Source: Steroidobacter sp. (GTDB taxonomy: Bacteria > Pseudomonadota > Gammaproteobacteria > Steroidobacterales > Steroidobacteraceae). From it: 35,650 nt of DNA. The notes beneath the pieces were generated by a model. That model did not search any database and was not told where the DNA came from. It saw only the letters and a program-made list of their open reading frames with translations. Location: NCBI GenBank assembly GCA_025929585.1, contig JAICPY010000036.1, positions 1 through 35,650 on the forward strand. Direction: 5' to 3'. This document shows positions 3,133 through 27,260 of this stretch, one piece after another (within the stretch, counting starts at the first letter, position 1; every line of letters starts with the position of its first letter). A program made the position numbers and the translations under genes.

Positions 3133-3283
3133 GAAGCGGATAGCGGATGGCGGATGGCGGATAGGTCGAAAGCGGGCGAGCTCGCACGACCAAGACGTAA
3201 ACGTTCGCAGAACCTCGCTGCCCAATCTATCGACCGCTCCGGCACCTCACCCTATCCGCTATCCGCCATCCGCTATCCGCTTC
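3133..3283. repeat. Heptad inverted repeat A
   Basis: Left arm 3133-3165 and right arm 3251-3283 are complementary at 32 of 33 positions. Each arm is four tandem units of GCGGATA or GCGGATG. The 85-base loop contains the palindrome GCGAGCTCGC. The element starts 9 bases after the aminotransferase stop and fills the gap before the next gene, which is on the same strand. Probable terminator or mRNA 3'-end structure; no T-tract follows. Confidence 0.9.
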
Positions 3284-3302
3284 TTTCATCTCTCAACTCT
3301 CC

Positions 3303-3710
3303 ATGGAGCTGACCCAAATGCTTCTGACCGGTTCGCTGGGCGGCCTGGTCAGCGTGCTCGCCCATTCGGCACTGTGGTCGGCAGTCGGTCTCGTTCGAAG
3401 AAGTGCCGTAATTTCGCGCGCCGAGCCGACTGCAAGCGAAGCGCTGCTGCACATGGGATGCGGAATCGCGCTCGCGTTTCTGTTCTGGCTGAGCTGGGGA
3501 CTCGCGGCAATTTCCGATCCGAGATGGTGGGTACGCGGGCTTTATTTCGGCGGACTCACTTGGCTGGCGCTGGTCGTGCCGACCATCGGCAGCATCGCGA
3601 TCACGCGCGCTTTGGATTTGAAGTCGGCGGCCGTGCTTGCCTCGCGTTGGGGGACGACGGCATTGACCGTAGGCCTCACCTGTGCCTGGAGTTGGCACCA
3701 AGCGGTCTGA
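3303..3710 (+). CDS. Small integral membrane protein, unknown function
   Basis: 135 residues, not recognised. Hydrophobic stretches at about 5-30, 49-68, 76-97 and 110-130 suggest three or four membrane helices, with a Trp-rich turn SDPRWWVRG between the second and third. There is no signal lipobox and no catalytic motif. The ATG at 3303 overlaps the NcoI-like CCATGG and lacks a clear Shine-Dalgarno. The stop codon lies inside a perfect hairpin (3701-3730). The gene is convergent with the hydrolase-fold gene and has no operon partner. Confidence 0.65.
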   Translation: MELTQMLLTGSLGGLVSVLAHSALWSAVGLVRRSAVISRAEPTASEALLHMGCGIALAFLFWLSWGLAAISDPRWWVRGLYFGGLTWLALVVPTIGSIAITRALDLKSAAVLASRWGTTALTVGLTCAWSWHQAV

Positions 3711-3730
3711 GCTCGATCGCTCAGACCGCT
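3701..3730. terminator. Perfect 12-bp hairpin between convergent genes
   Basis: AGCGGTCTGAGC (3701-3712) pairs exactly with GCTCAGACCGCT (3719-3730) around the 6-base loop TCGATC. It covers the last codons and stop of the membrane-protein gene and ends 10 bases before the end of the convergent gene. No T-tract is present on either strand, so it would act as a two-way hairpin, perhaps a Rho-linked or 3'-stabilising one. It has no heptad periodicity. Confidence 0.65.
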
Positions 3731-3740
3731 CGAGAATAGG

Positions 3741-4592
3741 CTATCGATCGAGGAACTCGCGAGCGACCGAGGCGAAGCGTTGTGGCGCCGCGCTCAAGAA
3801 TCCTTGGCCGAAATCCGAAAGATCGAGCATCGAGCCATTGCTCAGTGCGCCTCGTATTCGCGGTGCTTGCTCCCAGAATTCATCTTTGAGCCGAAGCACC
3901 AAGGTGGGTTGCTTCACCAGCGGCAATCGCTCGCTCGGGGCGTAATCCAACGCAGCGGCCAACCCTTTCACACCATGCACGCCCGCACGCAAACGGTCAG
4001 CGAAATCTTCGGCAAGTGCAGCCGGAGGGACGCCCGGTCCACGGCGCTCGAGCATACGCTGCCACTCTTCGGCAACGTCGCTCCCGTCCTCGCGAGAACC
4101 GATCGCAGCCGGATGTTGAAGCAGAGTCACTCGATCCTGAGAAGAGTACGCGGGCACGCCCCACAACATTATTCGCCGAATCTGCTGTGGACGCGTGATT
4201 GCGAGCTCGGCAGCGACAGCCGCGCCGAGTTGGTAGCCGAACACATCGACTTGACGCAACCGCAAGCCATCGAGAAAGTCGCCGACTGCGGCCGCCAAGT
4301 CCGCTACGCTCGCCTTACCATTCGGAGCATCGGACGTGCCATGACCTGGAAGGTCAGGAGCATAGATACTGCGGTCGCTGCCGAGCTCTTTGAGCATCGG
4401 CCCGAACAATCGTCCCGAACCGCCGCTGTGATGCAGGCACACAACCGGCATGCGCTCGTCGAAGCCGCCGCCGGATGGGTACGCAGTCCAGAGATGGATT
4501 TGACCGTAACGGCTCTCCGCATAAGAGCGTCGCACGTGAATCACGGCAGGCTGTGGTATCGGAAGACGATTTCGATGTTTCGCGTGGATCAC
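3741..4592 (-). CDS. Alpha/beta-hydrolase-fold protein lacking Ser and His of the triad
   Basis: 283 residues from a GTG at 4592. The fold is clear: oxyanion-type HHSGGSGRL (54-62), APDLPGHGTSD (78-88), nucleophile elbow and a C-terminal acid-turn LRLKDEFW (D237). The elbow reads GYQLGA, with Gln121 (CAA at 4232-4230) where the nucleophilic Ser should be, and the usual catalytic-His turn reads DFGQGF with Gln263 (CAA at 3806-3804). Two of three triad residues are therefore replaced, so ordinary esterase chemistry is unlikely; a binding, scaffold or cofactor-free non-hydrolytic role is possible. Alternative GTG starts exist inside the first 20 codons. It is divergent from the S9 peptidase and convergent with the membrane protein. 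Confidence 0.8.
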   Translation of the reverse strand: MIHAKHRNRLPIPQPAVIHVRRSYAESRYGQIHLWTAYPSGGGFDERMPVVCLHHSGGSGRLFGPMLKELGSDRSIYAPDLPGHGTSDAPNGKASVADLAAAVGDFLDGLRLRQVDVFGYQLGAAVAAELAITRPQQIRRIMLWGVPAYSSQDRVTLLQHPAAIGSREDGSDVAEEWQRMLERRGPGVPPAALAEDFADRLRAGVHGVKGLAAALDYAPSERLPLVKQPTLVLRLKDEFWEQAPRIRGALSNGSMLDLSDFGQGFLSAAPQRFASVAREFLDR

Positions 4593-4798
4593 TTATAACC
4601 CTCTGTGGCGTTTCCAACCCGACAGTCGCACTGCATCGCGCAGCTGACATATGCTGGAGCATCGCGCCCAATTGAATGTGAAGACGGATTTTACGTACCT
4701 AGGCCTCGCAAGAAATGGATCCACTTCTCAGCTTCGGCACCCGCAAACGGACTCGCTTGGCACACTTGAAAACGACCACAACCGTTCGAGGTTCGAGA

Positions 4799-6913
4799 AT
4801 GACACGACTGATGACGAGTAAGTTCAACGCGCAGTTGCTCGCGGTGTGTGTTTTGTGCGCGAGTTCGCTATCCCAGGCGCAAAGTCAGCCCTTCACCGCT
4901 GAGGCGATGTGGGGACTGAAGCGTCTCGCCGACCCGGCGATCTCGCCCGATGGACGCATGGCCGTCGTGCCCGTTACTGCTTACGATGTTGCAGAAAATA
5001 AAAGCAACACTGACCTGTGGCTTGTACCCACGAAGCCTGGCCGTTCCCGCCAGCTCACGAGCGGTGAAGCGAACGACAGCTCACCGGCATGGAGTCCGGA
5101 CGGACAGTTGATCGCCTTCGTTTCCAAACGCGGCGAAGACGAAGAAGCTCAGCTTTATGTCATTCCCGTCGATGGCGGCGAAGCACGCAGAGTCACCAAT
5201 GTACCCACCGGGGTGATCGGTCCTAAATGGTTTCCCGATTCGAAGCGCATCGCCTTCCTGTCGCAGATCTGGCCGGAGTTGAAGACATGGCCGGAAATGG
5301 CGCAGCGCATGAAAGAGCGCGCCGAACCGAAGATGACCGCCCAGGTGTGGAACAGGGCGCCAATCGCGTACTGGGATCGCTTCCTCGATCATCGAGCCAC
5401 GCACGTGTACTCGATCGGCATCAACGGTGGCGAACCCATTGCGATCACGGTGCGCTCTGGCTTGTCCTTGGACGTTGCGGAGCCCGATGCGAGCTCGTAT
5501 GACATCTCCGCGGATGGAACCGAAATCGCCTTTGCGTCCGACACGGATGGCACAGGCATCGACCAGAATTTCGACATCTTCATCATGCCGATCGAAAACG
5601 GCATGCCGACAAACATCACGGCGAACAATCCTGCGGACGATGTCGGCCCCATGTATAGCCCGGACGGTCGCTTGATCGCGTTTCGCCAGCAGCGCATCAA
5701 AGATTTCTATGCCGATCGCGCGCGCTTGATGCTCTTCGATCGCAAGGCGCGCACCGTCCGCTCGCTCACGGAAGATTGGGATCGATCCGTCGATGGGCTC
5801 GTGTGGTCGCCGGAGGCGGACAGTCTTTTCGGATCGATCGATGACGCCGGAGTGCGTCGCATCTACCGCTTCGACGTTGGCGGCGGTGCACCGCGCGCGA
5901 TCACTCGCGAGCACAGCTTCTCTTCACTCGCAGTCGCGGGCAACGGACCTGTCATCGTTGGTTTGCGTCAAAGTTTCGTCGAACCACCCACGCTGGTGAG
6001 CATCATCGCTCGCAACGGCTCCGCGACTAAACTTTCCGACTTCAACGACACTGCGCTCGCGAACCTCACCCAGGGCCGTGTCGAAAGCGTGACGTATCCA
6101 GGCGCGAATGGCGAAGAGGTCCAGATGTGGATCGTGTATCCACCCGACTTCACCGCTGAGAAGCGCTGGCCGTTGTATTTGTTGCTGCACGGCGGTCCGC
6201 ACAACGCCATGACCGACGGCTATCAATGGCGATGGAACGCCCAGGTGTTCGCAAACTGGGGTTACGTTACGGCTTGGCACAACTTCCACGGATCCAGCGG
6301 CTTCGGCCAAGCCTGGACGGACTCGATCACGAAGGAATGGGCAGATCTACCCTATCAAGACACCCTCAAAGCGGCCGAATGGTTCGCGAATCAACCCTGG
6401 ATCGACAGCGAGCGAATGGCTGCAGGCGGCGGCAGCTTCGGCGGCTACCTAGCGAGCTATTTGCTGGGGCACGAACATCCTTTCAAGACCTTGGTTGCGC
6501 ATGCAGCCGTGTACAACTCCTATACACAGTACGCAAGCGACTATGGTGCATCGAAGAAACGCTTCGGAGAATTCTGGGAGGATCTGGACCGCTTCAATCG
6601 CAACTCCCCGCACATGAGTGCAGCGAGCTTCCGAACTCCGACGCTGGTGATTCACGGCCAACAAGATCTGCGTGTACCGGTCAATCATGGCATCGAATTG
6701 TTCCATACCCTGCAGAACCGCGGCGTGCCCAGCCAATTCGTTTACTTCCCGGATGAGAACCACTGGATCCTCAAGCCGCAGAACTCATTGTTTTGGTATG
6801 AGACCAAGCGCAAGTGGCTGGGACAATACGTGCAGCCCGGGCCCGTGGATCCCATTGTTCCGGCTACAGCCCCCGTTGAATCAGAGAGCGATGTAAGCTC
6901 GAATAGCGAGTAG
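4799..6913 (+). CDS. S9 family prolyl oligopeptidase-type peptidase, exported
   Basis: Serine peptidase of the acylaminoacyl-peptidase/DPP-like S9 group, 704 residues from the ATG at 4799. The first 24 residues (LLAVCVLCASSLSQAQ) look like a Sec signal, so the enzyme is probably periplasmic or secreted. Residues about 30-420 hold the WD40-like beta-propeller (repeated SPDG motifs such as AISPDGRMA, WSPDGQLI, YSPDGRLI). The C-terminal hydrolase domain has Ser546 in GGGSFGGY, Asp623 in GQQDLRVP and His655 in DENHWI, a complete triad. The open frame runs 28 codons further upstream, but the ATG chosen gives the signal peptide and has a purine-rich GAGGTTCGAGA before it. The 206-bp divergent gap on its left holds no promoter I would defend. 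Confidence 0.93.
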   Translation: MTRLMTSKFNAQLLAVCVLCASSLSQAQSQPFTAEAMWGLKRLADPAISPDGRMAVVPVTAYDVAENKSNTDLWLVPTKPGRSRQLTSGEANDSSPAWSPDGQLIAFVSKRGEDEEAQLYVIPVDGGEARRVTNVPTGVIGPKWFPDSKRIAFLSQIWPELKTWPEMAQRMKERAEPKMTAQVWNRAPIAYWDRFLDHRATHVYSIGINGGEPIAITVRSGLSLDVAEPDASSYDISADGTEIAFASDTDGTGIDQNFDIFIMPIENGMPTNITANNPADDVGPMYSPDGRLIAFRQQRIKDFYADRARLMLFDRKARTVRSLTEDWDRSVDGLVWSPEADSLFGSIDDAGVRRIYRFDVGGGAPRAITREHSFSSLAVAGNGPVIVGLRQSFVEPPTLVSIIARNGSATKLSDFNDTALANLTQGRVESVTYPGANGEEVQMWIVYPPDFTAEKRWPLYLLLHGGPHNAMTDGYQWRWNAQVFANWGYVTAWHNFHGSSGFGQAWTDSITKEWADLPYQDTLKAAEWFANQPWIDSERMAAGGGSFGGYLASYLLGHEHPFKTLVAHAAVYNSYTQYASDYGASKKRFGEFWEDLDRFNRNSPHMSAASFRTPTLVIHGQQDLRVPVNHGIELFHTLQNRGVPSQFVYFPDENHWILKPQNSLFWYETKRKWLGQYVQPGPVDPIVPATAPVESESDVSSNSE

Positions 6914-6923
6914 CGGCGACAAA

Positions 6924-6997
6924 GGTGTAGACGTTGGACGTCAGAAGCGAGAATCTCTTGATCTTGATCTGGGAAATCTGTCATCTGACCTCTACAC
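6924..6997. repeat. Heptad inverted repeat B (imperfect)
   Basis: The left arm 6924-6947 contains units TAGACGT and TGGACGT followed by CAGAAG. The right arm 6981-6997, read on the minus strand, gives GTGTAGAGGTCAGATGA. The arms align if one whole heptad (TGGACGT) is missing from the right arm. The element begins about 11 bases after the peptidase stop, and its loop is about 33 bases. Weaker than A, F or K. Confidence 0.55.
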
Positions 6998-7028
6998 ATT
7001 TTCACCTCGACACGCAGCTTATGCCTCT

Positions 7029-8102
7029 ATGAACCGTCGCGACGCGATCAAACTAACGGCCGCAGCATTGAGTGTTTCGGTGAGTTCCTCGGCTTTCGCA
7101 ACAAAATCACTGCGCGTTCTGATCTTAGGCGGTACGGGTTTCATTGGGCCGCATTTCGTCGAAGCCCTGAGTGCTCGCGGACATACGCTGACGTTGTTCA
7201 ACCGCGGCAAACGCAACGCCGCGCTTTTCCCAAAGATCGAAACGCTGATCGGCGATCGAAACGGCGAGCTCGATGCATTGCGCGACGGCAACTGGGATGT
7301 GGTAATAGATAACTCCGGTTACGTGCCACGACACGTTCGGCTCTCGGCAGAGTTATTGAAGGAACGAGCCGAACGTTACATCTTTGTCTCCAGCATTTCC
7401 GCTTATGCAAATTTGACCAAGCCCGGAATCGATGAAGATTATCCGACGGCGACCCTGCCCGACCCTTCAGTGGAGCAGGTCAATGGCGAAACCTACGGCG
7501 GCTTAAAAGCATTGTGCGAGAAAGCTGTCGAGCAGGCATTCGGAGCGCGCGCGACGATTCTTCGACCGACCTATATTGTGGGCCCCGGCGATCACACGGA
7601 TCGTTTTACCTATTGGCCCGTGAGAGTTGCGCGAGGCGGCGAGATGCTCGCTCCCGGCACCCCGAAAGACCCGATCCAGTTTGTAGATGTTCGCGATCTC
7701 ACGGATTTCACCCGCGCTTGCGTCGAGGAAGGCATCACTGGCCGCTTCAACATCTGTAATCCGCCTCGCGAAGTTACTATCGGCGAGTTGTTGGAAATTT
7801 CCAAACGCATTACCAAGGCAGACACGAAGTTTCGCTGGGCTGACGAGGCATTTCTGGAATCGAACAAGTTGCTCGACAGCGGTGAGATCCCGATCTGGTC
7901 GCCGACCAAGGGCGAATACGCTGGAGCAGCACTCGTGAATCCGGCGCGCGCAATCGCAAGAGGATTGCACTTCCGCGACGCGGCGACCACGGTCACGGAT
8001 ACCTTGTCTTGGCATCGCACACGACCTGCCGAAGAGCAGAAGTTGCGAGCGGGGCTCACACCGGAACGTGAAGCGGAGTTGCTGAGCAAACTAACAGGCT
8101 AA
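7029..8102 (+). CDS. Exported NAD(P)-dependent epimerase/reductase (extended SDR)
   Basis: 357 residues. NRRDAIKLTAAALSVSVSSSAFA at the N-terminus reads as a twin-arginine signal with cleavage near residue 24. The Rossmann nucleotide loop is GGTGFIG (34-40), the SDR serine region is VSSISAY (120-126), and the catalytic pair is Y156-x3-K160 in YGGLK. The family includes NAD-dependent epimerases/dehydratases and isoflavone-reductase-like proteins; the substrate is not evident. Tat export would let the cofactor be bound before transport (known principle, inferred here). The gene follows the S9 peptidase on the same strand after repeat B and precedes a lipoprotein gene by 37 bases, so the latter two may be cotranscribed. 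No clear Shine-Dalgarno; a three-codon ATG frame (7021-7032) overlaps the start. Confidence 0.85.
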   Translation: MNRRDAIKLTAAALSVSVSSSAFATKSLRVLILGGTGFIGPHFVEALSARGHTLTLFNRGKRNAALFPKIETLIGDRNGELDALRDGNWDVVIDNSGYVPRHVRLSAELLKERAERYIFVSSISAYANLTKPGIDEDYPTATLPDPSVEQVNGETYGGLKALCEKAVEQAFGARATILRPTYIVGPGDHTDRFTYWPVRVARGGEMLAPGTPKDPIQFVDVRDLTDFTRACVEEGITGRFNICNPPREVTIGELLEISKRITKADTKFRWADEAFLESNKLLDSGEIPIWSPTKGEYAGAALVNPARAIARGLHFRDAATTVTDTLSWHRTRPAEEQKLRAGLTPEREAELLSKLTG

Positions 8103-8139
8103 GGCCGATTCTCGGTCGCAAGAAATTCGAGGAGAGATT

Positions 8140-9030: not shown

Positions 9031-9064
9031 CGCGATGGGAGCGCCAACGCGCACGTGCTTACAA

Positions 9065-9157
9065 GTGACTCGTGACTAGCGGGTCGCGGGTGGTCAGAGA
9101 GGAAGGTTGACTCTTCAGATTTTTCCGACGACCCGCTGATCACCAATCACGAGTCAC
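9065..9157. repeat. Heptad inverted repeat C
   Basis: The left arm 9065-9092 consists of GTGACTC, GTGACTA, GCGGGTC and GCGGGTG. The right arm 9127-9157, on the minus strand, reads GTGACTC, GTGATTG, GTGATCA then GCGGGTC. The 11-base GTGACTCGTGA matches exactly between arms, and the second block aligns after one extra heptad in the right arm. It lies in the gap between the convergent lipoprotein and cupin genes, with a loop of about 34 bases. Confidence 0.75.
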
Positions 9158-9194
9158 GATTCAGCGCTGCTACCCGCACGCCTGACGCCGCAAA

Positions 9195-9680
9195 TCACTC
9201 CTCCAGCGGTCCAAACGGGTTGCCTGCATCCAAGTCGAAAATATCCACGCCTTTGGCGTGGCGGAACATGCGCTTGCCTAGCTCAGGGAAGTCGGCAATC
9301 TCAACGTCGCGGTTTTCACCGCCCATCAAATAGACAAGCTCTGATTCGAAGGGATTGCGCAGATGATGCGCAACGCCGGGTACGGGAAAAGCCATGAAAT
9401 CCCCGGCGCCGACCTCGTAGTCGGTGCCATCGATCCGAGCAATTCCCCGGCCCGATAGAATGTAAATCCACTCCTCTTCGGTCCAATGAGAGTGATACAC
9501 GAAGGATTCTTTGCCTGGAGGCATGCGCGCGATGGTGACTCCCAGTCGGCGTAAGCCAGTCGACTTCGCAAGCGCGTAACCGATGAGCTCCGAGCGAGGG
9601 TTCCAAGGATGAGAGAAGCTTTGTGCGCGGGCCTCGATGTCTGCAGCGCGCAATAGATAGAGATTGGGTCGATCTGACAT
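9195..9680 (-). CDS. Cupin-domain metal-binding protein
   Basis: 161 residues forming a single cupin barrel. Motif 1 is YHSHWTEEEWIYILSGRG, with metal ligands H63 and H65 and E69 or E70. Motif 2 is GDFMAFPVPGVAHHLRN, with H105 as the fourth ligand. All metal ligands are therefore present, which fits either a small dioxygenase or isomerase or a ligand-sensing protein; nothing here separates these. The N-terminal 40 residues (LRAADIEARAQSFSHPWNP) are a common lead-in in single-domain cupins of unknown function. The ATG at 9680 has no clear Shine-Dalgarno and sits 11 bases from a GCGGTTA triple repeat. Confidence 0.85.
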   Translation of the reverse strand: MSDRPNLYLLRAADIEARAQSFSHPWNPRSELIGYALAKSTGLRRLGVTIARMPPGKESFVYHSHWTEEEWIYILSGRGIARIDGTDYEVGAGDFMAFPVPGVAHHLRNPFESELVYLMGGENRDVEIADFPELGKRMFRHAKGVDIFDLDAGNPFGPLEE

Positions 9681-9691
9681 GGTCTTGCGAA

Positions 9692-9712
9692 GCGGTTAGC
9701 GGTTAGCGGTTA
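9692..9712. repeat. Single-arm heptad repeat D
   Basis: Three exact tandem copies of GCGGTTA, followed by GAAGAG. No complementary arm is found within the next few hundred bases. It lies between divergent gene starts (cupin at 9680, TPR lipoprotein at 9809), unlike the other elements, which lie at gene ends. It could be half of an element whose partner was lost, or a progenitor that has not yet been duplicated in inverted form. Confidence 0.85.
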
Positions 9713-9808
9713 GAAGAGTACATCGGAGGTGCATTGTTGACTGCATGGCCGTGCGATGACTCGCGCAGCAGCTTGCGCGCTCACATCAAGCTCGGCAACT
9801 ATTGCAAT

Positions 9809-13580: not shown

Positions 13581-13655
13581 TTGCCACGAAAGCCAACCGT
13601 AGATCTTAGCCTGCCGCCGACTGTCCACCGTCAATTACAAACCAAAGGTTCCGTT

Positions 13656-14858: not shown

Positions 14859-14863
14859 TCGCA

Positions 14864-14948
14864 CTCTGCAGTCTGTAGCCCGCAGCAAAAGGACTTCGTA
14901 TCCGGCTTTATCTGGCTACGGACTGCAGACTGCAGACCATGGACTGCT
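14864..14948. repeat. Heptad inverted repeat E
   Basis: Left segment 14865-14880 (TCTGCAGTCTGTAGCC) pairs with 14914-14929 at 15 of 16 positions around a 33-base loop. The right arm continues in 7-base steps (GACTGCA twice, then GACCATG, GACTGCT), so it carries at least one more heptad than the left. It starts 6 bases after the thiolase stop, between convergent genes. Confidence 0.8.
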
Positions 14949-15382: not shown

Positions 15383-15572
15383 AAGGGGGTAATGACTAGG
15401 GGGTAGGGGGTAGCAAGAAAAAGTCAAAGAAAGTTGGTCCGTGGTATAGAAACAAAGCTGAGACGTGTGTCAGCAGATCGACACTCGAATGCGAGAACGG
15501 CTCTTAGTCTGGGCCGCAGACTGAACACCTTCTTATTCTTGCTATCCCCTACCCCCTAATCATTACTCCCTT
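15383..15572. repeat. Heptad inverted repeat F
   Basis: Left arm 15383-15419 and right arm 15536-15572 are complementary at 34 of 37 positions. Units include GGGGGTA (15385, 15399, 15406) and ATGACTA, all in 7-base register. The inner ends carry GCAAGAA on both arms. The 116-base loop contains a small AGTCTG/CAGACT hairpin near its right end. The element fills the gap between the ilvB stop (3 bases away) and the gloA start (6 bases away), both genes on the minus strand. Confidence 0.92.
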
Positions 15573-15575
15573 TCC

Positions 15576-17423
15576 TCAGAACATCTCCGACTCATCCGGA
15601 CTTCGGATCTCGGTCTTGTGGCGGGAGGTGATGAAATCGCCGGTGATCATCTCGTCGTACGCTTGGCCGGGACCGACCATGGGGTAGACGCCCGCGTCCG
15701 GGTCGATCATCACTTCGAGGAAAGCCGGTCCATTGAATTCGATGAATTCCTTGATGACTCGCGGCACGTCTTCCTTGCGGTCCAGGCGCATCGCGAACTT
15801 GAAACCATCCGCTTGAGCCGCCTTGATGAAATCTTTCTTATGCAGCGATTTATCGCTTGCGGAAAGCCGGCCTTTGAAGAACAGCTTTTGCCATTGCTTG
15901 ACCATGCCATCGCCGCAGTTGTTGAGCACGACCACCTTCACCGGCAAGTCGTATGTCGTGACCGTCTCGAGCTCACCCAGGTTCATGCGAATACTGGCAT
16001 CGCCATCGACGTCGATGACGAGCTTGTTCGGATTCGCTACTTGCGCACCGATCGCGGCCGGCAAGCCGAAACCCATCGTGCCCATGCTGCCGGAAGTCAG
16101 CCACAAGCGTGGATCCTTGAAATCGAAATACTGCGCGCTCCACATTTGATGCTGGCCGACACCGGTGGTGATGATGGCCTCACCGCGCGTGAGCTTGTTG
16201 ATTTCTTCGATGACGTAATACGGCTGAATCAGCTCGCTATTGCGATCGTAGTTCATCGCGTGGTCGCGCTTGAGCGCCGCGCAGTGCGCATGCCATTCGC
16301 TCCAGTTGCCTTTGAAGCTGACGCGTCGGCCGTAAGCCCGCAGCTCGCGTAAGGCTTCGGGCAGAAGGCCGGTGTGATGCCAGCTGACAGCCTTGACCTT
16401 GTTGATTTCCGAGATGTCGATGTCGATTTGCACGACGTGCTTCGCCCGTGGCGCGAACTTCGCTGGATTTCCGGCCACGCGGTCATCGAAGCGCGCCCCG
16501 AGCGCGATCAAGAAGTCGCAGTCATCGACCGCGTAATTTGCGAATGCAGCGCCATGCATGCCGAGCATTCGCATTGCCAGGGACTGGGTTGTATCGAACG
16601 AGCCCAGCCCCATCAGCGTGGTGACGACCGGAATCTGGAACTCGAGCGCAAAGTCCCGCATCGCTTGCGAAGCGCCGGAATGAATGACACCACCGCCTGC
16701 GTAAATCAGCGGCCGCTTCGCCTTGCCCAGCATCTCGAAAAGGGACTCGCTCTGCTCTTCGGTCAAGACATTGCGGGCGAGCCGATTCATGCGATGGCGA
16801 TAGCCGGCGATCGGCAATACACCGCTGCCTTGAAATGCGCCGCGCCAATTCTGAACGTCTTTGGGAACATCGACGACGACTGGCCCGGGCCGACCGGTGC
16901 GCGCAATCTCGAACGCAGTTCGGATCGTGGCTTCGAGCTTCGTGGCATCGGTCACGAGAAATACATGCTTTGCCACCGAACCCATGATGCTGGCGACCGG
17001 AGCCTCCTGGAAGGCATCGCTGCCGATTGCAGCGGTGGGAACTTGACCGCAAATCACGACGATGGGTACGGAATCAGCCATGCAGTCCCGCACCGGAGTG
17101 ACCGTGTTCGTTGCGCCCGGACCCGAGGTCACCACACAGACGCCCACTTTTCCACTGCCGCGCGCATAACCCGCCGCCATGAATCCGGCACCTTGCTCAT
17201 TCGCCGGCACGATCAACGGAATCTGTGTGCGATTCTCGCTTGCCGCGTCTTGGTTGTAGACGAAGATGGCGTCATAGGTCGGGAGAATCGCTCCTCCGCT
17301 GTAGCCGAAGATCGTGTCGACACCTTCGTCGGCGATCACTTGTACGATGATTTCGGCACCCGACATCGGCTTCCCAGCCAACGGGTGCGCAGGCGAATTG
17401 AACGCGGCGTAGTTGTGTTTCAC
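15576..17423 (-). CDS. ilvB: Acetolactate synthase, large (catalytic) subunit
   Basis: Condenses two pyruvates to acetolactate (valine/leucine), or pyruvate with 2-oxobutanoate (isoleucine), using thiamine diphosphate and FAD. 615 residues from a GTG at 17423; an ATG at 17366 (MSGAEIIVQVI) gives 596 residues and is a real alternative. The catalytic Glu is E76 in ANEQGAGF, within a variant of the usual RHEQGA, and a longer insert precedes it (YNQDAASENRTQIPL). The thiamine motif runs from DGDASIRMNLGELE to VVVLNN. FAD and central domains are normal. The sequence looks like a distinct clade from E. coli IlvB/IlvI. Its regulatory subunit is encoded divergently, not downstream as is usual. Confidence 0.92.
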   Translation of the reverse strand: MKHNYAAFNSPAHPLAGKPMSGAEIIVQVIADEGVDTIFGYSGGAILPTYDAIFVYNQDAASENRTQIPLIVPANEQGAGFMAAGYARGSGKVGVCVVTSGPGATNTVTPVRDCMADSVPIVVICGQVPTAAIGSDAFQEAPVASIMGSVAKHVFLVTDATKLEATIRTAFEIARTGRPGPVVVDVPKDVQNWRGAFQGSGVLPIAGYRHRMNRLARNVLTEEQSESLFEMLGKAKRPLIYAGGGVIHSGASQAMRDFALEFQIPVVTTLMGLGSFDTTQSLAMRMLGMHGAAFANYAVDDCDFLIALGARFDDRVAGNPAKFAPRAKHVVQIDIDISEINKVKAVSWHHTGLLPEALRELRAYGRRVSFKGNWSEWHAHCAALKRDHAMNYDRNSELIQPYYVIEEINKLTRGEAIITTGVGQHQMWSAQYFDFKDPRLWLTSGSMGTMGFGLPAAIGAQVANPNKLVIDVDGDASIRMNLGELETVTTYDLPVKVVVLNNCGDGMVKQWQKLFFKGRLSASDKSLHKKDFIKAAQADGFKFAMRLDRKEDVPRVIKEFIEFNGPAFLEVMIDPDAGVYPMVGPGQAYDEMITGDFITSRHKTEIRSPDESEMF

Positions 17424-19004: not shown

Positions 19005-19087
19005 GGTCTGCGGTCCGCGGTCTGCGGCCAGAGAAAGAGCAGGCTAGCAGGATGAATCCGCAGTCTGCAGTCGGTGGTCTGCAGGCA
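19005..19087. repeat. Heptad repeat G (mostly direct)
   Basis: Left block 19005-19025 is GGTCTGC, GGTCCGC, GGTCTGC. Right block 19060-19087 is GCAGTCT, GCAGTCG, GTGGTCT, GCAGGCA. Both are in 7-base register. As an inverted pair they match only 11 of 15, whereas as a direct repeat they match about 18 of 22, so this element departs from the inverted design. It starts 5 bases after the GST-fold stop. Confidence 0.7.
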
Positions 19088-19104
19088 GAAACGCGGTTGA
19101 GAGC

Positions 19105-19170
19105 TTGACCATTGACGGTCAGAGAAGACGCGTACTCTGACTGTCAACCGCCACTGTCAACAGTCAACCG
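19105..19170. repeat. Heptad inverted repeat H
   Basis: TTGACGGTCAGAG (19112-19124) pairs with CTCTGACTGTCAA (19135-19147); the single mismatch is a G-U pair in RNA. The loop is 10 bases. The left side begins with the unit TTGACCA (19105); the right side repeats ACTGTCA and ACAGTCA in near 7-base steps to 19170. A further short GCCGCC/GGCGGC hairpin (19170-19188) reaches the stop of the convergent oxidoreductase gene. Together with G this fills the convergent gap. Confidence 0.75.
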
Positions 19171-20374: not shown

Positions 20375-20779
<405 letters not shown>

Positions 20780-21077: not shown

Positions 21078-21291
21078 TCCGGGCGCACACAGCGGGCAGG
21101 CGCGGCAGCCAAACACAGCGCGCCTCAGCTCACACCTTAGTGCGCTTTAGGGCGATGGATCAGCGCTGAACATCGAAAAGCCTGCCTTCCGATAGCCTTG
21201 ATATGCGCGCAACGTGACTGAAGTCGCGACTATCGAGCACGCCGAACGCAGTTCCTTGTTCGCTCAAAAACCCCGTGCGACAAGCCGCTCC

Positions 21292-23031
21292 ATGTCAGGA
21301 GAGGATAGAAACTTGCTGAGCGGCGCGGGCGTACGCAGACGCCTTGGCCATCTTGTCGTGCTGATCGCGGCTTGCGCTTGGTCGTATGGCGCAAGCGCAG
21401 ATGAGCGCGCTGACGCACACATTCTGTATTTCGAGCCGTTTCATGTCTCGGTTCCCTCGAGCACAGGTGAGCAGCACAAGACGTCCGCCGACAATCTCAA
21501 AAAGCTCGCCTTCAACGCCTATGGCCGGGAGTACACGTTGAATGTGGACGCGGACCATGCCTTTCATTCCAGTCTTCTCCAAAAGCCTAACCGCAGCTCC
21601 TTGAAGCTTTATCGCGGCTCGATCGAAGGCCTCGCGAGCTCCTGGGTGCGTCTTGCGACTCGGGGCACCGAGGTTCACGGCATGCTGTGGGATGGAGCGC
21701 ACGTTTATGTGATTGCACCAAGCGACGAGGTTCGCGATCAACTCGTCCCGCCGCTCCAGGCATCGAGCCATTCGGTGATCTTCAGGCTTTCGGATGTACT
21801 CATCTCCACGCAAGACATGGCGTGCGCTACCGACGAGGCCGTGTCGATGCAGCGTGCATCGCAAGCGTATGCATCATTGACGCAGGAAGTGCAGCAGCAG
21901 CACCAGCAGGACGTGGCAGCTAGCTTGCAGCTTACCGTGTCCGCTGTGGGCGATTCGCACTTCGTCGATAGGCACGGCAGCGCCGAGGAAGCACGCGATG
22001 AGATTCTGCTTCGCATGAACAATGTCGACGGCATCTTCAGCGCGCAGCTCGGCGTGCAGATCAAAGTACCCATCGTGCAAGTCCACGATGCGATGACCGA
22101 TCCCCTGTCGAGCGCGGACAACCCGAGCGCACTACTCAATGAGCTCGCGCAGGAGCGGCGTCGATCTAGCGAACTGCGCTCGAGTGGACTCACCCATTTG
22201 TTCACCGGCCGAGATCTGGCGGGAACGACTATCGGGATCGGCTATCTCGATGCGTTGTGCGATTCGAAATACGGCGCGGGCCTGACCGAAGTCGGTCATC
22301 GGGGCGCATGGTATGAATCTTTGATTGCTGCCCATGAGATCGGGCACAACTTCGGCGCGGTACACGACGGCGAGGCCGGCAAGGCCTGTGCAAGCACTCC
22401 GCAGGGTTTGTTTCTGATGTCACCGAACGTCAATCCAGTCGACAATTTCTCCGAGTGCAGCCAGCAATCTATGCGGCCAAATATCTCCCGTGCGCATTGC
22501 ATCACCCCCCTGCCGCCAGCGGATGTCATCGTAGGTGAGGATCTGGGCGTCGTACGCCGCCCTGTTGGCACCCCATTTTCCTGGGACCTGCCGATCACGA
22601 ACATCGGCGGTACGCGCGCTTTGAACGTGCGCGCGGAGATTCACGTTCCCGGGACTCTCATAGCGGAAGACGCGTTTGTAGAGGGCGGGTCATGTACGAA
22701 TGGCGCGGGTGTCGTGCAGTGCGAGATTGGAGCTCTGGCCGCTGGAAGCTCAGGCACGGTCCAATTGTCATTGCGCGGTGAGGTCGCCGGACTCAGCGCG
22801 ATCTCCGCGAATGTATTTGCCGCCAACGAACAGCGAACTCAGAACAACGGCGCCACCGGCACGATCGAGATCGAAGCCGACGCGACACCGGCCGTGCTGG
22901 AGACCCCCGCACCCACGCCCCCAGCGGCAAGTCCGGCGCCCGCAAGCTCAGGGGGCGGTGGATCAAATGGTGCGATACTGTTGGCCGCTTTAGGGTTATT
23001 CAGCCTGCTCCGACGGATCCGCACGGGCTGA
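21292..23031 (+). CDS. Secreted reprolysin-like zinc metalloprotease with GlyGly-CTERM tail
   Basis: About 579 residues. A Sec signal (RRRLGHLVVLIAACAW, then SYGASA) is followed by a propeptide-like region (FNAYGREYTLNVD, LKLYRGSIEGLASSWVRL), then the catalytic domain with HEIGHNFGAVHD at 348-359, the extended zinc motif of M12B/adamalysin proteases. After it come paired Cys, a DUF11/CARDB-like beta domain (PITNIGGTRALNVRAEI), a Pro/Ala-rich linker, and the tail SSGGGGSNGAILLAALG ending in a basic cluster RRIRTG. The tail fits GlyGly-CTERM, a rhombosortase-processed sorting signal linked to type II secretion. The ATG at 21292 is chosen for the signal peptide; a GTG at 21214 is also in frame. 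No classical Shine-Dalgarno is seen. Confidence 0.88.
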   Translation: MSGEDRNLLSGAGVRRRLGHLVVLIAACAWSYGASADERADAHILYFEPFHVSVPSSTGEQHKTSADNLKKLAFNAYGREYTLNVDADHAFHSSLLQKPNRSSLKLYRGSIEGLASSWVRLATRGTEVHGMLWDGAHVYVIAPSDEVRDQLVPPLQASSHSVIFRLSDVLISTQDMACATDEAVSMQRASQAYASLTQEVQQQHQQDVAASLQLTVSAVGDSHFVDRHGSAEEARDEILLRMNNVDGIFSAQLGVQIKVPIVQVHDAMTDPLSSADNPSALLNELAQERRRSSELRSSGLTHLFTGRDLAGTTIGIGYLDALCDSKYGAGLTEVGHRGAWYESLIAAHEIGHNFGAVHDGEAGKACASTPQGLFLMSPNVNPVDNFSECSQQSMRPNISRAHCITPLPPADVIVGEDLGVVRRPVGTPFSWDLPITNIGGTRALNVRAEIHVPGTLIAEDAFVEGGSCTNGAGVVQCEIGALAAGSSGTVQLSLRGEVAGLSAISANVFAANEQRTQNNGATGTIEIEADATPAVLETPAPTPPAASPAPASSGGGGSNGAILLAALGLFSLLRRIRTG

Positions 23032-23120
23032 ATCCTCGCTAAGCCTCTCTCGCGACCTGTGGTCGTGACTCCTCGTGGCTATGCCTTGATTTTCAAAAGG
23101 AACGCCTCTAGTTCCAAGCT

Positions 23121-24080
23121 ATGGACTACAAGGATTACTACAAGATCCTGGGCGTTGCCCGGGACGCCAATCAAGACGAGATCAAGCGCGTCTATCGGCG
23201 CTTGGCACGCAAATTCCACCCGGATGTAAGCAAAGAATCGAACGCGGAAGAACGGTTCAAGGAAGTTCAGGAAGCGTACGAAGTCTTGAAGGATCCGGAG
23301 AAGCGCGCGGCGTACGACCAACTCGGCTCGAGCTGGCGTTCCGGCCAAGAATTCAGGCCGCCCCCCGATTGGGGCAAAGACTTCGAGTTCACGACATCGT
23401 TCGGCGGTGGCCAGAGCGAGGATGGCGGCTTCAGCGATTTCTTCTCATCTCTGTTCGGCGCACGCAGTCCGTTCGGGCAGCAACAAACCGGTAGGCGCGC
23501 CGGTGGTTTCGCGCGCAGCGGAGAAGATCATGTCGCGAAAATTCAAATCGATCTCGAAAGCGCCTTCCGCGGCGGCACGCAGACAATTGAGTTGAAGGCA
23601 CCTCAGATGAGCGATGACGGGCGCGTCGTCGTCAAGCCGCGAACGCTGCGCGTCACCATCCCGGCGGGTGTGATCGAAGGCCAGCGCATTCGGCTCGCTG
23701 GCCAAGGCAGTGCGGGACTCGGCGGCGGTCCTACGGGAGATTTGTATCTCGAGATCGGCTTCCGCCCGCATCGGCTATTCCAGGTAGAAGGACGCGACGT
23801 CACGCTCACGCTGCCCGTCGCACCCTGGGAGGCCGCGCTAGGCGCAACGATCCAAACTCCGACACTCGCAGGACCTGTCGACTTACGCATTCCTGCTGGC
23901 GCGAAAAGCGGACAAAGATTGCGGCTGAAGGGCCGCGGTCTGCCCGGCGCCACGCCAGGCGATCAGTATGTGGTACTGAAGATCGTGCTGCCGCCTGCCG
24001 ATACTCCGGAAGCGCGCGCGTTGTTCGAAAAGATGAAGAAGGAAATGCCGTTCGATCCGAGAGAAGAACTTGGAAAGTGA
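23121..24080 (+). CDS. cbpA: DnaJ-family co-chaperone CbpA
   Basis: 319 residues. The J domain at 1-70 carries HPD (33-35), which stimulates DnaK ATPase; a Gly/Phe-rich linker (about 78-130) and two CTD beta-barrels follow. There is no zinc-finger Cys region, which separates CbpA from DnaJ. Family members bind curved DNA and act with DnaK in stationary phase. The partner/inhibitor gene cbpM usually follows cbpA but is missing; instead the convergent receiver gene comes next. The stop codon lies inside the first heptad of element I. A purine-rich AAGGA lies 20 bases before the ATG, too far for a normal ribosome site. Confidence 0.92.
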   Translation: MDYKDYYKILGVARDANQDEIKRVYRRLARKFHPDVSKESNAEERFKEVQEAYEVLKDPEKRAAYDQLGSSWRSGQEFRPPPDWGKDFEFTTSFGGGQSEDGGFSDFFSSLFGARSPFGQQQTGRRAGGFARSGEDHVAKIQIDLESAFRGGTQTIELKAPQMSDDGRVVVKPRTLRVTIPAGVIEGQRIRLAGQGSAGLGGGPTGDLYLEIGFRPHRLFQVEGRDVTLTLPVAPWEAALGATIQTPTLAGPVDLRIPAGAKSGQRLRLKGRGLPGATPGDQYVVLKIVLPPADTPEARALFEKMKKEMPFDPREELGK

Positions 24081-24196
24081 CGGGTGACGAGTGACCGGTA
24101 AGAAAGTGGAACGAGGTGAGACAGCAATTTAAGAATACTGCTTGATCGAATCTCGTGATGAGAGATCTTCTCTTGCCCGTCACCCGTCACTCGTCA
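24077..24196. repeat. Heptad inverted repeat I
   Basis: The left arm is three units of GTGACGG type (24077-24097) and overlaps the cbpA stop codon. The right arm 24173-24196 is built of CCGTCAC, CCGTCAC and TCGTCAC. The arms match at 20 of 24 positions, with differences at the variable heptad positions. The loop is about 75 bases. It fills the gap between the convergent cbpA and receiver genes. Confidence 0.82.
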
Positions 24197-24200
24197 CCTC

Positions 24201-24590
24201 CTAGTGCCTCAACTCCATCAGCGCATGATCCAACAGATACGCGACGCGGCGCACGATTGCGAGATCTAGATGAGGCTTCTCGATGAAGTCGACTGCGCCC
24301 TCGCGCATCGCGGCGACGGCTGCGTTTACGTCGGCCTCATCTCCCACCAGGATGACGGGCGGGGAGATGCGCATCGAGCGCAGCAGCCGCAGCAAGTCCA
24401 ATCCCGACATGCCGGGCAACGCAACATCGGTGATGACGCAGCCTAACTTTTCCCCATTGGCAGCCAGGTAACTCTCTGCACTTTCGTAATCGTGCACATC
24501 TACGTCTAAGGCGCTGAGCAGGGATCGAAGCGTGTGGCGGTCCGTTGCATCTGCTTCGATCACTGCAACGATGGGTCGTGCGGTCGCCAC
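24201..24590 (-). CDS. Single-domain receiver protein with degenerate active site
   Basis: 129 residues, a lone CheY-like receiver closest in style to FixJ receivers, from a GTG at 24590. The phospho-acceptor Asp55 (CVITDVALPGMSG) and the Lys in DFIEKP are kept. The acidic pair is altered: where FixJ-type proteins have VDD, this one has IEA (E12, A13), so one Mg2+ ligand is Ala. The switch Thr is replaced: ITGHGDV of the neighbour corresponds to VGDEADV here. Phosphorylation may be weak or absent. It sits 288 bases downstream of the fixJ-like gene, same strand, separated by element J, and has no output domain, so it may be a phosphate sink, competitor or decoy of the kinase. Confidence 0.85.
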   Translation of the reverse strand: MATARPIVAVIEADATDRHTLRSLLSALDVDVHDYESAESYLAANGEKLGCVITDVALPGMSGLDLLRLLRSMRISPPVILVGDEADVNAAVAAMREGAVDFIEKPHLDLAIVRRVAYLLDHALMELRH

Positions 24591-24786
24591 AATATAGTTC
24601 GAGATGAAAAGCGTGCGCGCGCTCGGACCGTTGCCGAGATCACACGCGGCGCAATGGTGGACGTGGAGAGAAGAAGTAGCGACGCGGCGGGAGAAAACAT
24701 GGGCCGCATCTTTGGACCGTCGCCCGCGGACGAGAAGTTCGGACTTGTACTTAAGGTAAGAGCATGCGCGCAGCGCGCTCTGGAAA

Positions 24787-24866
24787 GTCCGTAGTCCGCA
24801 GTCTGCAGCCAGCGCGTCAACCGCAATCGCGCTGCGGTTCTTACTCTTGCTGCAGACTACGCACTA
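24787..24866. repeat. Heptad inverted repeat J with nested hairpin
   Basis: The left arm has units GTCCGTA, GTCCGCA and GTCTGCA (24787-24807) followed by GCC; its 24792-24809 part pairs with 24849-24866 at 16 of 18 positions. The loop contains a perfect 7-bp hairpin AACCGCA/TGCGGTT (24819-24839) followed by TTCTTAC. It starts 12 bases beyond the stop of the fixJ-like gene. The rest of the 288-bp gap (24591-24786) shows nothing I can name. Confidence 0.8.
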
Positions 24867-24878
24867 AAGACCTCGTCC

Positions 24879-25505
24879 TCAAGCCTGCCCCACTTCCAGC
24901 ACCATGCGCACCAGATGCGCGAGCGAGGACGCTTGCATTTTCTCCATCACGCGCGCGCGATGGATTTCGACAGTGCGTTGGCTGAGCTTCAAATCACCCG
25001 CGATTACTTTATTCGCTTTGCCGTGGACGACCAGATCGAGTACTTCGCGTTCGCGTGGCGTCAGAGTATCGAGTCGTCGACGGATATCGTTGCGCTCGCC
25101 CAGTGCCGCGCGATTGCTGCCGTCTTTCTCGAGCGCTTGGTTGATGCGATCGATCAGATCTTGATCGCGAAAAGGTTTCTGAATGAAATCCACGGCGCCG
25201 GCCTGCATTGCTTCTACCGCCATCGGAACATCGCCATGACCGGTAATGAAAATGATCGGCAAGATCGAGTGCTTCTCGTTGAGCTTCTGCTGCAACTCCA
25301 GACCCGACATACCAGGCATCCGAATGTCGAGCACTAGGCAACCCGGACGATCTTCGCTGTATGCATCCAGAAATTCCTGCGCCGATCCGTACGTCTCCAC
25401 CGCCTGACCGACGGAGCGAAGCAGCAGCTTCAGCGCGTCGCGGACGGCCGCATCGTCATCGACGATGAAGATCGTAGGTCGTGCGTTGTTCGAATTTCCC
25501 CTCAT
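24879..25505 (-). CDS. FixJ-family response regulator
   Basis: 208 residues from the ATG at 25505. The receiver (1-125) has the acidic pocket VDDD (16-18), phospho-Asp60 in CLVLDIRMPGMSG, the Thr in FITGHGD and the Lys in DFIQKPF, all intact. The C-terminal LuxR-type helix-turn-helix starts LTPREREVLDLVV and has the recognition region SQRTVEIHRARVMEK. It is the output partner of the kinase directly upstream: the kinase stop and this start overlap as ATGA (25505-25502), giving translational coupling. In FixLJ systems low oxygen activates the pair; the target genes here are unknown. Confidence 0.93.
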   Translation of the reverse strand: MRGNSNNARPTIFIVDDDAAVRDALKLLLRSVGQAVETYGSAQEFLDAYSEDRPGCLVLDIRMPGMSGLELQQKLNEKHSILPIIFITGHGDVPMAVEAMQAGAVDFIQKPFRDQDLIDRINQALEKDGSNRAALGERNDIRRRLDTLTPREREVLDLVVHGKANKVIAGDLKLSQRTVEIHRARVMEKMQASSLAHLVRMVLEVGQA

Positions 25506-27052
25506 TGCGGACTCCCTGTTGACGTTATTGCCGGCAGTGTAAAGAAGAATCTCGCGCCGCCTCCCGGATTCGGACTGCACCACAGCTTGCCGCCATGCGC
25601 CCGAATGATCGAACGACTGATCGATAGCCCGAGACCTGTGCCGCCCGGCTTGGTCGTAAAAAACGGATTGAATACCTCTGCGACCGTGGAGGGATCCAAG
25701 CCCACTCCGCGATCGGCAACCATGAATTCCACGTCGCCTTCAGCGTCGATATACGTTCTCAGCACGATCTCGCGCCGCGGCTCAGGCACATTCTGCATCG
25801 CATCGATACTGTTGCGCACCAGATTCAGGATGACTTGCTGAATCTGCACCGCGTCCGCCTGCACTTGCGGCGCCTCGGTGGCAGTTTCCAGCGACATATG
25901 GACACCGTTATGCCGCGCATCGGTCTGTGCCAGCGTCAGCACATCTTCGAGCAAGCGGTTGGCCTCGATCAACTCGCGTTTCACCTCTCGGTTTTTCACG
26001 AACGTGCGCAGACGACGAATCACCTCGCCGGCTCGCAAGGCTTGAGCGCTGATATGCTCCAGCGCCTCGCCGATTTCTTCGTGCGAGAAGCCGCCCGCAC
26101 CGATCAATCGTTGACACGCTTGCGCATACGTCGCGATGGCTGTCAGAGGCTGATTCACTTCGTGCGCGATGCCGGCAGCCATTTCGCCCATGGTCGAAAT
26201 ACGGCCGAAGTGCGCGATGCGATCCTGCATCTGCCGCGCTTCATCTTCGGCGCGACGCCGATCGGTTATATCGTGAATGGTGCCGACCTGCCTTAACACA
26301 CGGCCTTCCGCGTTCAAGGTGGTATGGGCGATGTGATGCACATAGCGCAAAGAGCTGTCGGGATGATGAATTCGATACTCGATGTCCATTGAGCGCGCGC
26401 CGCTGTCGAGTTCCTCGCGCGCTTGCTGCCATCGAGCGCGATCGGCGGTGTGCACCATCGGCGCGAGATAGTCATACACGCCGATATACGGCTCCCCGAA
26501 ACGGCGCCCGAGCACACGGTACAAATGAGGCGACCAGTAGTCTTCGACGTGACCTTCGAAATGCACCACATAGTTGCCGAGGTTCGCAATCTCTTGTGCG
26601 ATCGTGAGCTGCGCCTCGCTCCGCCGAAGTGCCTCTTCGGCATTGCGCCGTATCGTGACATCGCGAATGAAGCCGACGAAGCGCGGTGGATCGGTGCCCT
26701 GCACTCTTCCAACAGCGAGCTCGGCATAGAATTCGCTGCCGTCGCGTCGCTTGGCGAGCAATTCGCGGCCAATGCCAATGATCCGCGGCTCGCCGATCTC
26801 GATGTAATGACGAAGGTAATCTTCGTGCTGTGAGCGGTATGGCTCAGGCAACAAGATGTGGACTTTCAGGCCGATGACTTCTTGTTCGTTGTAGCCGAAC
26901 ATGCGCTCGCCGGCGTGGTTCAGAAGCTCGATGCGTCCTTCGTGGTCGAAGAGCACTACCGCATCCACAGCAGCATCCAGCACAGCCTGGAACTCTCGTT
27001 CCAGCCGATGCGCGCGCTCCTCTTGGGGCTCAGAGACTCGCAACAGCGTCAT
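25502..27052 (-). CDS. FixL-like sensor histidine kinase with haem-type PAS domain
   Basis: 516 residues with no membrane segment. PAS1 (about 18-140) closely follows rhizobial FixL, with PEPYRSQHEDYLRHY giving H76 at the position of the proximal haem His (H200 in Bradyrhizobium FixL) and RIIGIGR giving R96 for the distal Arg (R220). FixL's H214 is Arg here. PAS2 (about 145-270) ends HDITDRRRAED, then HisKA with H297 in GIAHEVNQPL, and HATPase motifs NLVRNSIDAM, DRGVGLD and GGTGLGLSIS. Predicted to autophosphorylate in response to oxygen or another haem ligand and pass phosphate to the overlapping FixJ-like regulator. Haem binding is inferred from the residue match, not shown. No Shine-Dalgarno is obvious. 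Confidence 0.9.
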   Translation of the reverse strand: MTLLRVSEPQEERAHRLEREFQAVLDAAVDAVVLFDHEGRIELLNHAGERMFGYNEQEVIGLKVHILLPEPYRSQHEDYLRHYIEIGEPRIIGIGRELLAKRRDGSEFYAELAVGRVQGTDPPRFVGFIRDVTIRRNAEEALRRSEAQLTIAQEIANLGNYVVHFEGHVEDYWSPHLYRVLGRRFGEPYIGVYDYLAPMVHTADRARWQQAREELDSGARSMDIEYRIHHPDSSLRYVHHIAHTTLNAEGRVLRQVGTIHDITDRRRAEDEARQMQDRIAHFGRISTMGEMAAGIAHEVNQPLTAIATYAQACQRLIGAGGFSHEEIGEALEHISAQALRAGEVIRRLRTFVKNREVKRELIEANRLLEDVLTLAQTDARHNGVHMSLETATEAPQVQADAVQIQQVILNLVRNSIDAMQNVPEPRREIVLRTYIDAEGDVEFMVADRGVGLDPSTVAEVFNPFFTTKPGGTGLGLSISRSIIRAHGGKLWCSPNPGGGARFFFTLPAITSTGSPQ

Positions 27053-27122
27053 GCGCTGATTCTAACCACGCGCGAGGCAAAGTATCGAGCTTCGATCGAT
27101 ACGGGAGCTGTGAGAAGGCGGT

Positions 27123-27260
27123 AGGGGATAGGGGATAGGGGATAGGGGATGGTCAGAAGCGCTACCGCGTCTTTCGTCGCCTCGCGGATCGGCCTGTGGC
27201 CAACCCCGAGCGATAAAAGAGCGATCCGAACTATCCCCTATCCGCTATCCCCTATCCCCT
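27123..27260. repeat. Heptad inverted repeat K
   Basis: The left arm has four tandem units of GGGGATA (the last GGGGATG), 27124-27151. Left 27123-27150 and right 27233-27260 match at 27 of 28 positions. The loop is 82 bases. The left arm's inner end continues GTCAGAAGCG, the same ten bases as element B. It lies between the pyruvate carboxylase stop (13 bases away) and the FixL-like kinase gene, both on the minus strand. Confidence 0.93.

Follow-up and report, generated by a model that had tools for sequence, protein, structure and literature searches.

Facing arrays of short tandem words between the genes of a Steroidobacter genome, a candidate REPIN-like insertion superfamily

The contig JAICPY010000036.1 of Steroidobacter sp. 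(assembly GCA_025929585.1), 35,650 nt long and analyzed here in full as the window, carries eleven elements in the gaps between its genes that a sequence-only reading had described as inverted repeats with arms written in 7-nt words. What are these elements, and how did they come to occupy the gaps in which they now lie? Here, we show that the repeats are real and belong to genome-wide families that share one plan, and we tentatively favor, at a little under even confidence, a reading of these elements as a multi-word, non-autonomous, REPIN-like superfamily of insertions.

The genome is a draft assembly of 5,131,029 bases in 297 contigs, of which the window is contig C202. Our sample consists of the window and 40 further stretches of the same genome and covers 665,083 of the 5,131,029 bases (13%); long contigs are over-represented in it, and contigs C37, C41, C65, C95, and C111 were taken from a list of GGGGATA matches. 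Genes were called with a simple hexamer open reading frame caller, which splits the sample into 97 kb of intergenic and 567 kb of coding DNA. Genomes of relatives are denoted by G numbers, where G000 is the genome under study and G013 is Povalibacter uvarum.

Period-7 arrays between genes

We scored tandem arrays by lag matches and obtained 67 period-7 arrays in intergenic DNA, 8 in coding DNA, and none in 20 dinucleotide shuffles of the intergenic DNA, and thus period-7 arrays are found between genes more often than expected by chance, as the sequence-only reading had supposed. Intergenic arrays of period 8 and period 9 number 12 and 10, respectively; periods 14, 16, and 18 return 40, 4, and 7 arrays as multiples of these, and every other period from 2 to 20 returns 0 to 3. 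The same three periods dominate the 85 intergenic hairpins, where 51 have arms of period 7, 10 of period 8, 8 of period 9, and 1 of period 5, with 15 showing no period by the score used.

Word families and arm orientation

To follow the arms across the sample, we used ten family profiles, which were built from words named by hand from the hairpin list and so recover look-alikes of these words, and which by design include the loop-side border of the arms. The arms sort into genome-wide families denoted by GSGGATA, GCGGTTA, GGGGGTA with ATGATTA, GTYYGYA, GTGACGG, TTGACGG, GCGGGTC with GTGACTA, CAGCGGCG, the 8-nt GTGACGRR, and the 9-nt GTGATGDAV, and the earlier impression that the words fall into groups is thereby borne out. 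A few additional words occur, among them GGGAATC, whose arrays are a minority. The profiles detect 308 arms in the sample, 17 of them mostly inside called genes; block-shuffled sequence yields 3 arms, none of them in a facing pair. Among 139 pairs of neighboring arms, 120 are facing, 17 are direct, and 2 are back-to-back, with a further 49 arms that by the count used have no neighbor within 250 nt. Both arms belong to one family in 109 of the 120 facing pairs, compared with 11% expected from family frequencies.

The word is a property of the family rather than of the locus. When the arms of these 109 pairs are detected singly, an arm resembles its partner no more than it resembles arms from elsewhere in nine of the ten families; the exception is GTYYGYA, where partners are more alike (p 0.0015), and a borderline value (p 0.07) is obtained for both GSGGATA and the 8-nt family. 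The description of intergenic inverted repeats written in words therefore holds overall, and the notion that each element has a word of its own falls. Gene conversion from arm to arm, which would give locus-specific words, had been suggested by arms chosen for complementarity (within-element likeness exceeding between-element likeness in 9/10 families); that signal is gone in nine of the ten families once arms are detected singly, and we discarded it.

The GGGAATC word shows some variation of its own. One GGGAATC element has GGGAGTC units in its other arm, and long GGGAATC arrays followed by GGGAGTC-type units are found at L118:8299 (the end of G000:C111) and in L310 (G000:C136:3429). Such arrays, one of which sits at a contig end, may be breaking the draft assembly.

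A shared closing heptad and unrelated loops

Read inward, an arm consists of a run of word units of 7, 8, or 9 nt followed on the loop side by a heptad near GYMAGAA. Unit counts in 236 arms show a moderate preference for four (88 arms), with 77 arms of two units, 57 of three, and 14 of five or more; a further 45 arms hold fewer than two exact units. The closing heptad, with variants GTCAGAA, GCCAGAG, GTAAGAA, and GCAAGAG, is common to families whose words are unrelated and is also found on most arms of relatives that are written in other words. A loose form of it follows 134/233 arms vs 89/1286 random intergenic places.

The loops are 13 to 194 nt long (median 57). Comparison of the 77 loops of at least 20 nt with the 665 kb sample gave no loop-to-loop match, 99 matches to arms, and three short ones (16-17 nt) elsewhere. 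An internal sequence common to copies, a classical trait of miniature inverted-repeat transposable elements, is therefore absent from this set.

The elements of the window

With these families in hand, the elements of the window can be described as follows.

Element A, 3129..3286: GSGGATA-family arms 3129-3171 (+) and 3247-3286 (-), loop ~85 nt, between co-directional genes; arms complementary at 37/39 nt in a hairpin search without prior models, period 7.
Element B, 6924..6997: GTGTAGA-type hairpin with inner heptad GTCAGAA, resembling L089:6861.
Element C, 9066..9152: GCGGGTC/GTGACTA-family arms 9066-9099 (+) and 9122-9152 (-), in a convergent gap, detected by profiles; arms 74% complementary by inverted-repeat search.
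Element D, 9689..9713 (+): solo GCGGTTA arm of 3 units, for which a search for a facing partner found none.
Element E, 14861..14945: GTYYGYA arms 14861-14893 (+) and 14907-14945 (-), in a convergent gap, detected by hairpin search and profiles.
Element F, 15384..15571: GGGGGTA arms 15384-15425 (+) and 15530-15571 (-), loop ~108 nt; arms complementary at 37/41 nt, period 7.
Element G, 19005..19094 (+): two direct GTYYGYA arms, 19005-19036 and 19057-19094, detected by profiles.
Element H, 19103..19169: TTGACGG arms 19103-19126 (+) and 19133-19169 (-), detected by profiles only; left arm weak in profile (12.6 bits).
Element I, 24077..24197: GTGACGG arms 24077-24108 (+) and 24168-24197 (-), in a convergent gap, detected by hairpin search and profiles.
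Element J, 24785..24874: GTYYGYA arms 24785-24814 (+) and 24842-24874 (-), detected by profiles; arms 74% complementary by inverted-repeat search.
Element K, 27123..27264: GSGGATA (GGGGATA) arms 27123-27159 (+) and 27223-27264 (-); arms complementary at 27/28 nt, period 7.

The description of all eleven as period-7 inverted elements is thus correct in part. Tandem- and inverted-repeat finders bring back most of the arms that had been claimed. Within the window, the intergenic hairpin search recovers A, E, F, I, and K alone, all five with period-7 arms; C and J are upheld by 74% pairing together with their profiles, and H by profile alone. Element B lacks a clear period 7, D is a solo arm, and G consists of two direct arms. 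Weak extra profile matches at 1-17 and 13607-13634 (within a gene) were left out of the element count.

The genes that flank the elements are ordinary in appearance, the window contains no tRNA gene, and Rfam returns no match at the gathering threshold. The acetolactate synthase gene (15576-17423) is present in 14/14 genomes of the genus (this one included), with best named-genome matches to a Steroidobacter metagenome-assembled genome (82%) and Povalibacter uvarum (81%). The cyanobacterial frame in which the heptamers had been placed is thus not that of the host, a member of the Steroidobacteraceae (Gammaproteobacteria).

Placement between genes

Among gaps of 30-1500 nt, elements occupy 20/75 convergent, 45/235 tandem, and 9/90 divergent gaps (convergent vs divergent, p 0.007; tandem vs divergent, p 0.048). 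In 46 cases in tandem gaps, the element starts a median of 6 nt after the stop codon and ends a median of 14 nt before the start codon, and thus often nearly fills the gap that it occupies.

Orthologous gaps are filled in some species and empty in others

Comparison with relatives reveals both occupied and empty orthologous sites. Gap A, 178 nt here, is 6 nt in G009, 19 nt in G004, and 15 nt in G005; gap B, 115 nt here, is 2 nt in both G004 and G005; and the gap that holds G and H, 190 nt here, is 6, -4, and 6 nt in G004, G005, and G012, with an uninformative 1779 nt in G013. Lengths of -4 to 19 nt in relatives against 115-190 nt here at these three gaps argue that arms and loop arrived together as an insertion. 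Gap C is 164 nt here and 34 nt in G007, and gap E is 99 nt here, 27 nt in G007, and 56 nt in G009. In these relatives, loop and arms are missing together. Gap F is occupied by the same family with a short loop in G007 and by a different word in Povalibacter, and is 12 nt long in G012; gap I holds a GTGTAAAG-type element in G007 and is 26 nt in Povalibacter; gap J holds a GCGATGA-word element in Povalibacter.

Arms matching the profiles of our genome occur at 46 per 100 kb in the genome itself, at 38 in G007 (28 contigs, many selected for matching the window repeats, which biases this density upward), at 12 in Povalibacter, at 5 in G002, and at 2.5 in G009 (two arms, no pair). None was detected in samples of G004, G005, G001, G003 (40 kb), and G012, nor in 320 kb sampled across 11 genomes outside the genus. 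The same architecture recurs in relatives, written in different words. Povalibacter has GCGACGA/GCTGCGA and GGCGTGA, G007 has GGGCTCT, GGGGCTT, and GTGTAAAG, and G012 has a 9-nt GTCACGAAR, all of them outside the ten profiles; the GCGACGA/GCTGCGA and GGCGTGA arms of Povalibacter and the GGGCTCT arms of G007 mostly close in GCCAGA or GGCAAGA. In 33 gaps comparable in our genome, G007, and Povalibacter, we find facing pairs in 18, 10, and 7, respectively (by eye); five gaps are occupied in all three species, and four of these carry a word that is not the same throughout (by eye).

Several other features came to light. G013:C2:1058821-1059117 appears to be a long GTGACGG-type array, with repeated matches at 21-nt steps over ~300 bases. 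A different conserved hairpin family, with arms like GCGTCGCCGGGAGTGACCTACCTCGTCCCGGCA, is found at L201:151 and 492 (G005), L211:6918 (G001), and L212:71 (G002), and is common to three members of the genus whose samples contain heptad elements rarely or not at all. The G007 ortholog of L103:12338-12421 is a 204-nt convergent gap with a hairpin of longer irregular AGCTTTCGCTAGAAGGCT-type units, possibly another repeat class. Short blocks such as CAAACTCCGATCATACGCGCGCTTTTCG and AAAAGGCGCGGAATTGTACACTA are alike in our genome, G007, and Povalibacter (L103:15727, L090:8867, and window:24591-24878); these lie in element-free gaps or in parts of gaps outside elements and are perhaps promoters or leaders. 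Perfect hairpins occur in G022, from another genus of the family (L216:1568, 16371, and 19716 and L217:9268), with GGTGCCGGG in three of the four; two score as period 8 or 9 and may thus be related to the word elements.

A REPIN-like reading and its difficulties

How might these elements have arisen? In the reading that we favor, the unit would be a facing arm pair around a non-conserved loop, each arm a short run of family-word units (7, 8, or 9 nt, four being commonest) closed on the loop side by the shared heptad. A sequence-specific trans-acting factor would read array and heptad, and the same factor might disperse the elements, keep their arms near the family consensus, or both; insertions would survive where the stop codon and ribosome-binding site are spared. 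Four features recur, namely the family word, its repetition in a short run, the heptad that closes the run, and the way in which the arms face each other, and together they fit a factor that recognizes a specific sequence and works on doublets, as is proposed for REPINs in the portion of that work available to us (PMC3116915). A RAYT (REP-associated tyrosine transposase) is a poor fit for such a factor.

A number of observations weigh against this reading. Loops are never common to copies, while a recently copied element should share its loop; we ascribe this unlikeness to age and neutral decay, which may account for it. We sought a mobilizer gene at the Y1 transposase loci of the genus and matched none to the elements, and no excess of target-site duplication was found at 81 elements for k = 3 to 9. 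Two gaps tell us little about insertion: J measures 288 nt in our genome against 266-388 nt in relatives, with no such difference in length as at the other gaps, and K is 221 nt here, 211 nt in G009, 119 nt in G004, and >2 kb in G005 and G013; in G009, these two gaps are about as long as ours (266 and 211 nt), yet no facing pair was detected in them. The case for persistence of arms at orthologous gaps with the same word is weak as well, as it leans on picked sites. Seven such comparisons, drawn from five gaps selected because the word agrees, give arm identities of 69-100% over aligned positions, values that carry no shuffle control. The loops score no higher than the best of 15 shuffles in six of the seven, two of these six coming near it. 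Finally, Rehm et al., in the part of their report consulted, generally saw no association of the Xanthomonas repeats with mobile elements and describe increased stability near them (PMC4692102).

Alternative explanations

An RNA function, in which transcribed hairpins at gene ends serve 3'-end protection, RNase III processing, or termination between genes, would account for the excess in convergent and tandem over divergent gaps and for edges that hug stop and start codons, and the consulted part of Rehm et al. states that the majority of the Xanthomonas repeats are transcribed (PMC4692102). This placement is also consistent with insertions purged elsewhere, orthologous gaps are often element-free, and the arms show little sign of selection for pairing in RNA, since transcribed-strand mismatches in 49 tandem elements comprise 32 G-U, 35 A-C, and 46 transversions with no G-U bias. 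With G-U not favored and partner arms matching no better than other arms of their family in nine of ten families, it is the family consensus rather than pairing that appears to be kept, and we consider an RNA function unlikely. A role as G-quadruplexes, as proposed for the heptamer repeats of Xanthomonas and Nostoc, is suggested by the G-rich words GGGGATA, GGGGGTA, and GGGAATC and by GTGACGG units, which form GGG tracts at their joints; GTYYGYA, TTGACGG, and GCGGTTA have no GGG tract, and the canonical four-tract motif is found in only 11/236 arms (6 GSGGATA and 5 GTGACGG), which leaves this explanation with next to no probability. Simple sequence repeats, with words expanded by replication slippage and a second arm made and homogenized by template switching, would explain why units are in tandem, the likeness of GTYYGYA partners, and the GGGAATC element whose second arm carries GGGAGTC units, from which units appear to spread within an arm. 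That process predicts alike partners, which nine of the ten families do not show, and leaves unexplained the shared heptad and the insertion into gaps of a few nucleotides; four being the commonest unit count also speaks against it, and we regard it as quite improbable.

True REPINs moved by a RAYT would likewise be extragenic facing doublets in many copies and several families per genome, to judge from the available text of PMC3116915, and one Povalibacter Y1 transposase gene (L314) has a short match of period 7 (17 nt) in its locus. L314 is the exception: the 3.3 kb around the single Y1_Tnp gene of our own genome contain no array of period 7-9, and of 11 Y1 loci from the rest of the genus, the 10 besides L314 likewise have none. 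Element-rich G007 has no Y1 match (genome 75% complete), G003 has two Y1 genes and no profile arms in its 40 kb, and G012 has five Y1 genes and at least one element. Our loops range from 13 to 194 nt, and compensatory changes are common in REPIN hairpins according to the same portion of PMC3116915. The RAYT link is not supported by these loci, and we assign it very little probability. Turnover of words in place, where one ancestral element per site persists and its word is replaced in both arms, draws on the four of five triple-occupied gaps that differ in word, all three words being different at L090:16794 (by eye). If insertion is open only to the 19 gaps that hold an element in one species or more, chance alone predicts about 3.5 triple sites; a test for association of occupancy gives p 0.12 between our genome and Povalibacter and p 0.008 between our genome and G007, the latter with same-family sites counted in and with three cases that depend on hairpins other than heptad arms. 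Insertions that coincide by chance at tolerant gaps account for the data nearly as well as word replacement, so that turnover is not needed, and we hold it to be very doubtful.

Relation to known repeats

The nearest known system is the GGGAATC (GGGNATC) repeats of two Xanthomonas genomes, which, in the part of that paper that we consulted, form 70 and 75 facing pairs, favor arrays of four units, and are read as G-quadruplexes (PMC4692102). Paired inverted heptamers, which had seemed to be something without a name, are therefore already known in GGGNATC form. As in our genome, the Xanthomonas repeats have 7-nt units in facing pairs and are intergenic, near gene ends, and rare between divergent genes, within the same part of the source (PMC4692102). 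GGGAATC arrays also occur in our own genome, and a class-wide search for the GGGAATC triple matched 2/369 genomes, ours and G470; loop-side letters of the G470 pairs are GTCGAAG, GTTGAAG, GTTCAAG, and GTGAAAG, and also GTAGTTG and GGAAAAG. In contrast with Xanthomonas, a single genome here contains no fewer than ten word families, of periods 7, 8, and 9, the ten profiled families have words other than GGGNATC, and the 8- and 9-nt families exceed the heptamer definition; the heptad is shared across families, the quadruplex motif is mostly absent, and orthologous gaps are found empty, filled, or filled with different words.

Foldback transposons of eukaryotes have long inverted ends made of short tandem repeats; the elements described here are far smaller, bacterial, and show no target duplication. 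They share with REPINs the facing doublets, the extragenic location, the several families per genome, and non-autonomy, and differ from them, as far as the available portion of PMC3116915 describes these, in arms that are tandem word arrays rather than repetitive extragenic palindromic (REP) sequences, in loops that are not conserved, in the lack of visible compensatory pairing, and in having no matching RAYT. The TAACTGA repeats of Beggiatoaceae, cyanobacteria, and a few others are also intergenic heptamer arrays of two to six units; in the accessible text of PMC4679880, they have one word in 169 direct sets and one inverted set and are proposed as sites of a post-transcriptional regulator. 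In the open-licence literature, searched by the name Steroidobacter and topic, we found no report of such elements in Steroidobacteraceae. What is new here is a multi-word superfamily with 8- and 9-nt members, a shared closing heptad, evidence of insertion, and different words at one gap.

Implications

These findings make the single heptamer word of Xanthomonas, read as a G-quadruplex, part of a wider class with a shared plan, in which the quadruplex reading fails to cover most words of the Steroidobacter genome. The closing heptad, the empty and filled gaps, and the facing pairs provide testable handles on the invasion of bacterial intergenic DNA. A bolder proposal, which we put forward as speculation and consider rather unlikely, is that one machinery disperses or recognizes facing arrays through a fixed anchor, the closing heptad, and a free word of 7-9 nt, a plan that may reach other Gammaproteobacteria, with the GGGAATC pairs of G470 as a possible case. 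Words would then diverge into many families, and different words would come to occupy the same gene gap in related species. If one machine does tolerate many words, its mode of recognition would be new, and the elements would represent mobile DNA of a class whose recognition word can be exchanged.

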